From Nitrosomonadales bacterium (GTDB lineage Bacteria > Pseudomonadota > Gammaproteobacteria > Burkholderiales > Gallionellaceae): DNA of 57,621 bases. Below, piece by piece: positions 4,626 through 8,976 of the stretch. The translations under genes and the position numbers were made by a program. Under the pieces are notes generated by a model. The model worked only from the letters and a program-made list of their open reading frames with translations, did not search any database and was not told the DNA's origin. The DNA lies in contig JANXWX010000181.1 of assembly GCA_025350915.1 (NCBI GenBank), forward strand, positions 1 to 57,621, in the 5' to 3' direction. The stretch's first letter is position 1, and each line of letters starts with the position of its first letter.

Positions 4626-6161
4626 ATGATTATTCCTCGTAAAGCTCGTTACATCGTTCTGCTCTTTGTATTAGTCATTTTTTCCTTATTTTTAGTTAAA
4701 AAATATAGTATTTCATTCAGAAGTATTTTGGATTCATTTTATATTTTGCATCATGACGACCCGGCAATTTCTTCACATTATGATTGGCCGGGTGAATTAA
4801 ATTTTGAAGCGCCTCTCGCATTACCTCATATTAACAATTTCCCAGCATTTGCCAGGATTGGTGCCTGGGGAACCGTCAAATGGGAAGACAATAATTTAAC
4901 AGTTCAACTTTACGAGGTGAGTCATGCTGCCGAACGAACCGAATGGTTTGACTGCAAGGCGTTGCTCGAAGTCCGCGTCGGTATAACATCAATCGGATTT
5001 TTTGGCGATGGCCACAGCGTAGATAACCCTCAAGGAAGTTGGTCTGCCTGGCAGCCTATTGTGGCTAAACGTACTGGACAAGGTGCGTATAGTGCGAAAG
5101 GTGATTGGTCATTTTCTATAGCGGCACCCCTGGCTAGTAAACCATGGAAGTCCCGCTTGGCAATAGAAGCCAAATGTATTGTAAAAGACGGTAGTACTTT
5201 CAGCCTGATGAGTTTTACTTCATCCTGGTTTCTGGCAAAAGCTGCGCACTTTCAAGCCTATGCGCCTGATCCCTGCACACAAATTTTATCCTTGCGTGAC
5301 AGTATTACTGCACGCTGCCCTGATGCGCTGGTTGCCCGCTTAAATACCCCATGGGGAAGACATGAAATTCTTAATAATCCGAGTCATGATGCTACCTGGC
5401 TTGACATAGCGATTGCTGAATCAATGCCTGCCGCTCTCAGCCCCCTTGTTATGGCTGGAGTAGATGTAAACGTGACACCGGGTGATTATTCGGATGAGCC
5501 TGCTTTGGTTTACGCAGCAGGAAATGGAGATGTCCAAAGTGTGCGCGAATTGCTTTCGCTGGGCGCCGATAAAAACATGAAAAGCAAAACCGGTTACAGT
5601 GCCTATAACGCCGCTGCCATTAGCGGTTATGGTGATTTGGCAATGGAACTTGCTGAACAAGGCGTGCACCGCGATTCCAGTACAGGCAATGCTTACACTG
5701 CAATGTCACTCGCTGCATACCACGGAAATATTGATGCAACTCGGCGTCTACTTGAGTCCGGCAGTGATCCAGATACGCAAGTTGGAGGTTGGTACAATGC
5801 TCTGCATCACGCAGTTAAAAAGGATAATATTGAGCTTGCCCGAACATTACTTGTAGGCGGTGCAAATCCCAACATCGGCGTCAACGCAAGGAGAGGTGAA
5901 ACCCCGCTAATGATGGCGGCTGAAAATGGCAACATTCCTATGATGGAGCTGCTCATCTCAATGGGTGCCAGTGTTAGCATCATCGATAAAATGGGGAAAA
6001 ATGCGACGGATTATGCTGAGTTCTTTCGTAAAGCTGATGCTTCTGATTTTATGTGCAAACGCGGTGTAGAACCTACTTCAATTGATCGTTCCGCTCGAAA
6101 TAGTGAAACTTCAAAACGAGCCAATTGCAATGCGCCGAGTATAGCCAGGTCAAAAACTTAA
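4626..6161 (+). CDS. Membrane-anchored ankyrin-repeat protein
   Basis: 511 residues. One N-terminal transmembrane segment (about 8-25, YIVLLFVLVIFSLFLV) with basic residues before it suggests an N-in anchor and a periplasmic body. Residues about 60-225 form a Trp/Cys-containing beta-rich domain I do not recognise (IGAWGTVKWEDNN, WFDCKALLEVRVG, SWSAWQPIV). From about 255 to 470 there are roughly six ankyrin repeats, including PALVYAAGNGDVQSVRELL, AMSLAAYHGNIDATRRLLES, ALHHAVKKDNIELARTLL and TPLMMAAENGNIPMMELL. The C-terminal 35 residues are polar and low complexity. Ankyrin repeats bind proteins; the partner is unknown. No clear ribosome-binding site precedes the ATG. Confidence 0.75.
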   Translation: MIIPRKARYIVLLFVLVIFSLFLVKKYSISFRSILDSFYILHHDDPAISSHYDWPGELNFEAPLALPHINNFPAFARIGAWGTVKWEDNNLTVQLYEVSHAAERTEWFDCKALLEVRVGITSIGFFGDGHSVDNPQGSWSAWQPIVAKRTGQGAYSAKGDWSFSIAAPLASKPWKSRLAIEAKCIVKDGSTFSLMSFTSSWFLAKAAHFQAYAPDPCTQILSLRDSITARCPDALVARLNTPWGRHEILNNPSHDATWLDIAIAESMPAALSPLVMAGVDVNVTPGDYSDEPALVYAAGNGDVQSVRELLSLGADKNMKSKTGYSAYNAAAISGYGDLAMELAEQGVHRDSSTGNAYTAMSLAAYHGNIDATRRLLESGSDPDTQVGGWYNALHHAVKKDNIELARTLLVGGANPNIGVNARRGETPLMMAAENGNIPMMELLISMGASVSIIDKMGKNATDYAEFFRKADASDFMCKRGVEPTSIDRSARNSETSKRANCNAPSIARSKT

Positions 6162-6178: not shown

Positions 6179-6961
6179 TTAGTCGGCTTTTGGTATATCA
6201 AAAAATCCACTCTTCATTAACTCCACCGTCAGCGCCATGTAATCTGCCGCCCCCAGGGTATTTGGGCCATAGGCAAACACATCCAGTCCGTGCATAGGGC
6301 TGGTGGCAAGTGCGACGTTTTCACTGATGCGTGTATTGCAAACCAGGTCTCCATAACGATCTTTCACCTTGTCGAAGATATCGTAGGCCAGCTTGCGGCG
6401 TGAGTCAAAACGGGTAACCACGATGCGGCGTTCGAATGTTCGGTTGAGTCTTTTTTCCAGCACATTTAACGCCGCGTCCAGTCTGTACACGCCTTGCAAT
6501 GAAAGAAAATCTGCGGACACAGGAATCAGCACACGATCAGCCGCGAGTAATGCATTAAGTGTGAGCACGCCCATCATCGGGCAACAATCAATCAGTATTG
6601 GTGCGCCTGTTAGTGCCAGTTCTTCTTTCAGGCCTTGTTTAAGCAAGGTCGCCGCCTTGGGGTCTGAGCCATAGGTTGCATCAATTTTAGCCAACTCTAG
6701 CGACGAGGCGATTATCTGCCAGCCAGCCGGTGTGTCGCGCAACAATTTGGCCAAGGGAACTTTTTGCTCAAAAAATGCGGCCATATTGAGTTCGGGTGAG
6801 GTGCCATTTTTCAGGCCGCAGGCAATACTCAGATGCCCCTGCGGATCCATATCCAGCACAATAGGATGGCGTTTAGCCTTAGCGAGTACGGCGGCTACAT
6901 TCAGGCAGGTGGTGGTTTTACCAACCCCGCCCTTTTGATTAAATACGGCTATGACCGCCAT
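6179..6961 (-). CDS. Orphan ParA-family (MinD/ParA/Soj) ATPase
   Basis: 260 residues from the ATG at 6961, preceded by GAGG. The open frame extends 19 codons further upstream, but those residues do not look like a ParA start. MAVIAVFNQKGGVGKTT contains the deviant Walker A with the signature Lys. LDMDPQGHLS and PILIDCCPMMGVLTLNALL are the switch and Walker B regions, and the end (VFAYGPNTLGAADYMAL) is typical. No parB-like gene lies next to it, and the chromosomal parA is a separate gene at 18369-19148. Orphan ParAs often position large cargos such as chemosensory arrays, carboxysomes or plasmids; the cargo here is unknown. It lies immediately downstream of glmS, beside a relic glmS tail. Confidence 0.82.
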   Translation of the reverse strand: MAVIAVFNQKGGVGKTTTCLNVAAVLAKAKRHPIVLDMDPQGHLSIACGLKNGTSPELNMAAFFEQKVPLAKLLRDTPAGWQIIASSLELAKIDATYGSDPKAATLLKQGLKEELALTGAPILIDCCPMMGVLTLNALLAADRVLIPVSADFLSLQGVYRLDAALNVLEKRLNRTFERRIVVTRFDSRRKLAYDIFDKVKDRYGDLVCNTRISENVALATSPMHGLDVFAYGPNTLGAADYMALTVELMKSGFFDIPKAD

Positions 6962-7114
6962 CTGTTTGTCCTCGAATTCAGGTGAACGCGCACCTGAGCG
7001 ACAAATAATTTCTTGCACGATGCGTTGAAATCGGGCTATTACTGTTGATTGTTATCGGAAATATTTTTATTTACTTTAGTAGAAAATCCACGCTTTCCGG
7101 TATTTCAGCTCATA

Positions 7115-7144
7115 CTCTTTCACTGTTACTGACTTCGCCGAATT
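7115..7144 (-). repeat. Diverged second copy of the glmS 3' end
   Basis: On the minus strand 7144-7115 reads N S A K S V T V K E, closely matching the true glmS C-terminus N L A K S V T V E at 7179-7150. Five of the eight N-to-V codons differ only at third positions. The copy lies just after the glmS stop, in a different frame, and runs on to a stop about 13 codons later. This pattern points to a real coding relic, not a random repeat. Confidence 0.65.
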
Positions 7145-7149
7145 ACCGG

Positions 7150-8976
7150 TTACTCTACAGTGACTGATTTTGCCAAATTACGTGGTTTGTCTACATCGGT
7201 TCCCTTTTGCAGTGCCACGTAATATGCCAGCAGCTGTAAAGGGATGGTATGCAGAATAGGACTCAGAAAGCCTGCATGTTCGGGCATTTGCATAACCGAA
7301 ACCCCATCGGAAGATTGCATGCGGGTATTTGCATCGGCGAACACGAACAGTTCTCCGCCGCGCGCTCGCACTTCTTGCAAATTGGATTTGAGTTTTTCCA
7401 ACAGGGTATCGTTAGGGGCAACTGCGATAACAGGCATATCCTTGTCTACCAATGCCAAAGGACCATGTTTCAACTCTCCTGCCGGGTAGGCTTCGGCATG
7501 GATATAAGAAATTTCCTTTAATTTCAGTGCGCCTTCAAGTGCAATCGGGTAATGCAAGCCACGTCCTAAAAACAAGGCATGATGCTTATTGGCAAATTTT
7601 TCAGCCAGTTTGCTGATGGACGTGTCCAGATTCAACACGGCTTGCACCGCACTGGGCAGATGCCGCAAATCATGCAGGTGTTGTTGCTCTTGTTTGGAAG
7701 TTAACTTGCCGCGTAGTTTCGCCAGCACCAGTGTGAGCAGAAACAAACCTGCCAGTTGGGTGGTAAACGCCTTGGTTGAGGCAACACCAATCTCCGGGCC
7801 GGCGCGGGTCAAGAAACGTAGCTTGGATTGCCGGATGATTGCGCTTTCAGGCACGTTACATATTGCAAGGGTATGTTGATGTCCATTAGCCTTGGCATGA
7901 TTCAGTGCAGCAAGTGTGTCTGCCGTCTCACCCGATTGTGAAATGGTTACTACTAAAGTTTTTGGATTCGCTACGCTGACACGATAACGATACTCGCTGG
8001 CAATTTCTACATTGCACGGTATGCCGGCAATTTCTTCCAGCCAGTTACGCGCAACCAGACCGGAATTGTGGCTGGTACCGCAGGCCAGTATTAAAATGCT
8101 GTCGATTTGACTAAATGAAGCGGCGGCTTCAGCTCCAAAGATACCGGGAACCAGTGATTGACTGTTGCAGACAGCTTCCAAGGTATTGGCAAGCGCCTGG
8201 GGTTGTTCGTAGATTTCCTTGAGCATGTAGTGACGATATTCACCCAGCTCAACACTATCGTTAGTCAGCTCACTAACGTGCATCTGCCGTTGTACTGCTT
8301 TACCCTGTGCATCGAATACACGATAAGTGTCGATACCAATTTCTGCAACATCCCCTTCTTCCAGATACACTACATTCTTGGTAACGGCCAGCAAAGCTGA
8401 CATATCTGACGCGATGAAATTTTCATTCTCGCCTATCCCCAGCAACAAGGGGCTGCCTTTACGTGCACAAATGAGTTGTTCTGGATTGTTGGCTGCAACA
8501 ACGCCAATCGCATAAGCGCCAATTAGTTTGGCCAAAGAAGACTGTGTCGCATGCAGTAAACTTGCGCCTTTTTTATAGAAACTGTGCACAAGGTGCGCGA
8601 TTACCTCTGTATCGGTATCTGAAGTAAACACATACCCTTGCGCTGTCAGGTCTGTACGCAATTCTTCGTAATTTTCTATGATGCCGTTATGCACAACGGC
8701 GATCAATTCATCGCTCATATGGGGATGCGCATTGCGCTCGCTTGGTACACCATGTGTTGCCCAACGGGTGTGGGCTATGCCGAGATGACCGGTTATAGCG
8801 GCACTTCTCTGGGTAAGCTCAACAACACGGCCAGTGCTGCGCGCACGTTCAAGTTTCGCCTGATTAACGACAACCAGCCCTGCGGAATCATAGCCGCGGT
8901 ACTCGAGCCTCTGCAGACCCTGGAGCAAGATCGGCACCACATTTCGTTTTGCAACCGCACCAACAATACCGCACAT
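7150..8976 (-). CDS. glmS: Glutamine-fructose-6-phosphate aminotransferase (isomerizing)
   Basis: 608 residues, the usual family length. It converts fructose-6-phosphate and glutamine to glucosamine-6-phosphate, the entry step to UDP-GlcNAc for peptidoglycan and LPS. The start MCGIVGAV exposes the nucleophilic Cys2 of the class II glutaminase domain, followed by HTRWATHG and [10 protein letters not shown]. Two SIS sugar-isomerase domains follow ([39 protein letters not shown]), and the end is NLAKSVTVE. It sits downstream of glmU in the same direction, 60 bases apart, so the two early amino-sugar steps are probably co-transcribed. Confidence 0.97.

Follow-up and report, generated by a model that had tools for sequence, protein, structure and literature searches.

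A second glmS tail in a Gallionellaceae genome and a family of hairpin cassettes at the 3' ends of genes

The DNA analysed here, called the window throughout, is a stretch of 57,621 nucleotides that forms contig C94 of a 2.97 Mb Gallionellaceae assembly. An intact glmS gene lies on its minus strand, and a second copy of the last glmS codons begins after a gap of only 5 bases beyond the stop codon. The locus comprises the following features:

7150 to 8976, minus strand: glmS, intact, 608 amino acids (open reading frame and TIGR01135 profile, 851.7 bits against a cut-off of 418)
7150 to 7191, minus strand: T1, the current glmS tail, 13 amino acids and stop (direct reading)
7191 to 7189, minus strand: GAC codon, corresponding to the cassette site of relatives (GA^CAA; by comparison with relatives)
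7115 to 7149, minus strand: T2, the probably displaced tail, CC-GGT-AAT-TCG-GCG-AAG-TCA-GTA-ACA-GTG-AAA-GAG, out of the glmS frame
7097 to 7102, minus strand: TACCGG, which can pair with CCGGTA at 7149 to 7144; a possible remnant of a T2 reverse complement (weak, six bases, by eye)
6179 to 7018, minus strand: ParA-family ATPase gene, the usual downstream neighbour of glmS in Gallionellaceae, outside the cassette

A gene for an ankyrin-repeat protein (4626–6161) is convergent with the ParA gene. The preliminary description of this DNA had taken the ParA gene for an orphan. Of 116 glmS loci in the family, 71 have a ParA-like start downstream, at a median of 108 bases past the stop; ParA is therefore a common neighbour of glmS and no sign of foreign DNA, and we rejected a foreign origin of this gene.

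The end of glmS (minus strand, 7179–7150) reads AAT TTG GCA AAA TCA GTC ACT GTA GAG TAA and encodes NLAKSVTVE, and T2 from its AAT codon onwards (7144–7115) encodes NSAKSVTVKE. Over the first nine codons, two are identical, five differ at the third base only, one changes Leu to Ser and one Glu to Lys. Direct reading of both tails thus bears out the second, mostly synonymous glmS tail that had been described, together with the count given for its first eight codons. A degenerate NLAKSVTVE pattern with up to three mismatches matched T1 and T2 and nothing else in the window, where 0.02 matches were expected. The two tails differ at 8 of 27 bases. Third positions hold six of the eight differences (P = 0.006 if placed at random), and only two amino acids are changed (P = 0.006 for two or fewer changes from eight random base changes), so that T2 carries the proposed mark of past protein selection.

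The main rival to the reading developed below is that 36 bases of glmS (12 codons) were duplicated locally in tandem. Slippage between GTAGAC and GTAGAG would have produced two copies that were both translated and diverged synonymously, until a change of GAC AAA to GAG TAA created the present stop. The spacing fits this origin: the T1 and T2 blocks are 35–36 bases apart and GTAGA stands in front of both. The homology of T2 begins at AACC, a few bases from the GAC-AAA codons of glmS. Against a duplication, T2 lacks a stop where one would be expected, and it is closer to the tails of some other genomes than to the T1 beside it. Own T1 and T2 agree at 19 of 27 bases; among 115 other glmS tails, 17 agree better with T2 and 15 equally well, the best at 24/27 (locus L054 of genome G088). 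The expectation that T2 would match a foreign glmS better than the local one thus held for 17 of these 115 tails. Displaced glmS tails moreover recur in the family with a hairpin core in between, as described next, and we regard a duplication as unlikely, though well short of negligible.

Relatives also carry extra glmS tails. A pattern search of 120 family genomes detected another tail no more than 300 bases past glmS in eight (G000, G024, G061, G067, G088, G100, G119 and G133), at spacings of 35–175 bases, and a looser search found a further tail at 12 of 116 loci. Additional matches of the first search on other contigs seem to be either second glmS-like loci or, with 2 mismatches, probable chance hits. 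By comparison with these relatives, the earlier view of T2 as a relic of another glmS end is the simplest one; the slipped duplication, which had been dismissed outright, is on the evidence of the window alone a less likely but possible origin. In the relatives the order is gene body, T1, reverse complement of T1, core, T2, and we refer to this arrangement as a cassette. The glmS gene of G119 shows it twice in succession: body, T1, reverse complement of T1, hairpin, T2, reverse complement of T2, hairpin, T3 and native downstream sequence, with only synonymous codon differences between T1 and T2. G061 has three tails, the third being the most decayed.

The core is a branched hairpin of about 58 bases with the 3' end CCA[C/A]AA. 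In an alignment of 23 cores (L023, L112, L139 and L142 of the first picks were left out), 10 of 16 pairs showed compensatory changes. A covariance model built from this alignment, R1, found matches in 85 of 120 family genomes (E ≤ 0.01), covering all 15 genera sampled, and none in the remaining 35; across the order, 89 of 300 genomes in 45 of 135 genera matched (E ≤ 1e-4). An exact core pattern occurred in 59 stretches of named genomes, including Ferriphaselus sp. R-1, Sulfurisoma sediminicola and a Methylophilaceae, and had no match in IMG/VR viral contigs; blastn found no core in PLSDB plasmids. A comparison of eight core-bearing loci with Rfam gave a single chance match off the core (MIR869, 28 bits against a gathering score of 330), and a known RNA family was rejected for these loci. 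Tandem arrays of cores, spaced by about 99–145 bases, were found in three genomes:

G200:C67:14718-15346: core array
G200:C7:42072-42331: core array
G187:C1:2899069-2899407: core array whose unit is an smpB tail plus core
G055:C1:1737661-1738298: core array

Many genes besides glmS serve as hosts. Among 101 core sites gathered, of which 98 were distinct, a reading frame ended less than 170 bases before the core in 82. These frames include proB, ftsW, typA, pstB, argF, smpB, nrdA, metK, serS, acs, accB, dnaJ, tkt, recA, dapD and glmS, the calls for typA, pstB and tkt being partial frames under the curated cut-off. The insertion point was GA[C/A]AA at most sites read. Behind glmS itself, 22 core matches lay close to the stop in 19 of the 99 loci scanned (17 further loci were left out). 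These cores leave no room for a gene between T1 and core, and the core sites of other genes look alike by eye. No autonomous form carrying an open frame was seen at the 99 glmS loci, and this possibility was rejected. The window's own genome contains five cores (R1), which follow proB, ftsW, typA, pstB and one unnamed gene with no NCBIfam match (L178); three of the five have a significant T2.

A significant T2 (P ≤ 0.02, score ≥ 22) was present at 46 of the 98 distinct sites and absent at 52. Six of the 46 were dropped from the codon comparison, three for a wrong frame (L059, L194, L203) and three that lay at a gene start on the other strand (L170, L179, L189). The remaining 40 T1/T2 pairs contained 306 identical, 239 synonymous and 68 non-synonymous codons, and 19 pairs showed no amino-acid change at all. 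Changed codons were synonymous in 78% of cases against 24% expected for random single changes. Because amino-acid similarity was the criterion for accepting a T2, this share is too high; in addition, sites that share a genome or gene do not count as independent. At four ftsW sites (L161, L167, L174, L182) T2 still overlaps the following gene and T1 does not run into it, which places T2 in the native context. The gene after ftsW is presumably murG.

Cores also occur in other surroundings. At L177 (G024:C141) and L202 (G080:C1:1058328), in hosts which we take to be dnaG and purL, respectively, the core is in frame and without a stop, and by eye adds about 20–25 residues inside the gene. Six cores (L181 at G067:C1:943997, L156, L175, L183, L187, L208) lie near a tmRNA gene or genes for tRNA-Leu, tRNA-Ser and tRNA-Phe, each adjoining one intact RNA gene, and at L156, L187 and L208 a 5' part of the tRNA is repeated across the core. 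As a separate observation, at G092:C1:2383368-2383542 and G073:C1:2171995 cores stand by an apparent gene start, and the 5' end of the gene is repeated two to three times on the other strand.

T1 and its downstream reverse complement can form a hairpin, which we analysed in 11 glmS sequences of one type, namely nine current ends and two displaced units (the type A ends L046, L112, L117 and L118 were left out). In total, 93.9% of the cells were paired. The covariation score was 0.254 against 0.122 after shuffling, and 26 cells were changed on both sides against 10.4 in shuffles, neither value being reached in 500 shuffles. All seven compensatory pairs (columns 3, 6, 9, 21, 24, 27 and 30) coincide with third positions of glmS codons. 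The number of pairs changed on both sides (7 against 5.4, reached by 71 of 500 shuffles) and the number of pair types (15 against 15.1, 314 of 500) were unexceptional. Such covariation between synonymous third positions and a complement further downstream shows selection or copying at the nucleotide level within conserved coding sequence.

Strong covariation in the core and tail hairpins and the fixed place behind stop codons would also suit a vertically inherited RNA structure, a terminator or stabiliser at the 3' ends of housekeeping genes, of which the tail copies are by-products; unequal crossing-over could yield tandem arrays such as L210. We consider this quite unlikely as an account of the whole family, as the distribution is patchy (35 of 120 genomes without a match), cores are inserted in tRNA genes beside an intact copy, and in G024 a foreign T1 is joined to a native body and T2.

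The latter case shows the direction of replacement in one pair of genomes, G024 and G017, whose glmS genes are 88.6% identical. The last 33 bases of the gene body are identical in the two, the tails then agree at 24 of 33 bases (P = 0.010 given the rate of the body), and the G017 tail ranks 74th of 115 as a match for G024 T1. This T1 matches G009, a member of another genus, at 32 of 33 bases, and G024 T2 with its complement is identical to the G017 tail at 49 of 52 bases. Since body and T2 resemble G017 and T1 does not, body and T2 are native in G024 and T1 is the newcomer. In the last 330 bases of the body, G024 is G009-like at 17 of 29 differing sites, against 59 of 175 in the rest (P = 0.013, uncorrected, 21 genomes compared), which makes a recombination tract as possible as a site-specific insertion. 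G061 and G119 are less clear, their T1 being common to their nearest relatives.

The window copy was compared with these cassettes. Between 6900 and 7150, around T2, no core match exceeded 4.9 bits, and the best match in the whole window (13.2 bits) lies elsewhere. Behind the glmS genes of two congeners, G003 gave no match and G001 an unconvincing 4.1 bits. A search of the window for the reverse complement of T1 scored 14, against a shuffle level of 15, and by eye only six bases around T2 can pair (7149–7144 with 7102–7097). The duplication set out above needs no core and accords with its absence here. So does a route without any cassette, in which DNA was taken up and a glmS end from outside recombined illegitimately with the local gene. 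Such an event would explain why T2 is closer to tails of other genomes, and two T2-like cases have no core, the window and L008 of G025. Cassettes with a core at exactly this place are common (19 of 99 glmS loci), and this route seems improbable to us. By analogy with the relatives, T2 of the window is most likely a decayed cassette relic that lacks one defining feature, the core.

Taken together, we favour the reading that T2 was once the functional end of glmS and was displaced when a hairpin cassette supplied a new one, with a probability of roughly 65%. The cassette would consist of a copy of the last 9–25 codons and stop of the host gene (T1), the reverse complement of the start of T1 and the core of about 58 bases, followed by the old tail, T2. 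T1 would restore the reading frame and keep the gene intact, leaving T2 untranslated and free to decay, and with repeated events former tails would pile up downstream of the gene. A deletion in the window may have removed the reverse complement and core that followed T1, so that T1, its stop and T2 are what is left.

The preliminary description had proposed instead that a Tn7-type element, or a foreign island, brought the second tail to this place. Tn7-type elements do use the site behind glmS, and TnsA-like genes occur in 19 of 120 family genomes. The window's genome has a single TnsA-like match, which is on a different contig (C130), and none was found on the window's contig, which leaves the foreign island unsupported and led us to reject a Tn7 origin of T2. 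Tails are copied at smpB, argF, ftsW and other genes as well. For smpB, argF and ftsW we know of no Tn7 target site, nor is Tn7 known to us to copy the glmS tail. A Tn7-type relic behind glmS is accordingly a very remote prospect. Elsewhere in the family, the TnsA-like gene at G143:C3:41898-42137, about 10 kb from a glmS tail, may belong to a real Tn7-type element at glmS. In addition, about 26 bases past the glmS stop, L016 (G017) and L006 (G028) share the same TGGTCGTATAAATAAGAAGTGTCATTACA in two genera, a sequence that resembles a Tn7-like transposon end.

For the displaced-tail reading, the question of movement follows. Cassettes may pass between cells by homology-directed homing or by transformation, with T2 and the gene body providing the homology. 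We think that homologous recombination of T2 or the gene body with the recipient gene is the least demanding mode of transfer. A distinctly more speculative idea, which we hold to be doubtful, is that cassettes are protein-free cleave-and-rescue homing elements. The tail complement and core, as a transcript or single strand, would guide a host or trans-acting nuclease to uninterrupted gene ends in other cells, and the recoded T1 would rescue the essential gene. As the end of the gene itself would provide the guide, a single core could serve many housekeeping genes. No enzyme was linked to the cassettes. Y1 transposase (Y1_Tnp, RAYT) genes occurred in 61 of the 85 genomes with a core and in 30 of the 35 without one, and were absent from G067 and G028, which have 23 and 19 core matches, respectively. 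TnpB (PF07282) was present in 11 of 85 against 6 of 35, and reverse transcriptase (PF00078) in 36 of 85 against 22 of 35, tending to be less frequent where the core is present (P = 0.047). In the lack of a positive association with the core, all three were rejected as movers.

If the proposed reading is correct, bacteria hold protein-free elements of about 100–150 bases in conserved gene ends that keep the gene working by bringing a substitute end and let the earlier ends accumulate as a readable record. We found no bacterial element of this kind in an open-access library that omits subscription journals and most preprints. Partial likenesses to known systems are several. Genomic islands in gene 3' ends bring a new end and leave the old one at their far side, and they carry an integrase gene and many kilobases of DNA. 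The cassettes likewise carry in a new gene end with the old end beyond; unlike islands, they are without any gene. Rickettsia palindromic elements are palindromic inserts tolerated in frame in proteins, as some cassettes are, and we know of no tail replacement by them. Tn7 inserts downstream of glmS and leaves the tail uncopied, whereas the cassettes copy the tail and use other host genes too. For glmS alone, the cassettes share with Tn7 at attTn7 the same place behind the gene (PMC2918618).

REP repeats are short palindromes with many copies that sometimes provide a stop codon or lie in frame inside genes (PMC3733652). The cassettes resemble REP/REPIN sequences in being short, palindromic, multicopy and located at gene ends, and differ in their longer, branched core and in the duplication of host-gene ends. 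The WHO elements of the yeasts Torulaspora and Lachancea insert behind the conserved gene FBA1, bring a functional, resistant 3' end and push the old end downstream, where it decays (PMC7282813). Clusters arise there from repeated events, with the newest element nearest the gene, and the elements encode a homing endonuclease with one main target gene (PMC7282813). At the family level, to judge by the T1/T2 pairs and G024, the cassettes similarly replace the host 3' end and displace the old one. In contrast to WHO elements, cassettes are about 100–150 bases long, encode no homing endonuclease (no open frame between T1 and core at the glmS sites), use many hosts and form a hairpin with the gene's own end. 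If the reading holds, they would be the equivalent in bacteria of homing elements that replace gene ends, and would explain mosaic 3' ends of housekeeping genes.
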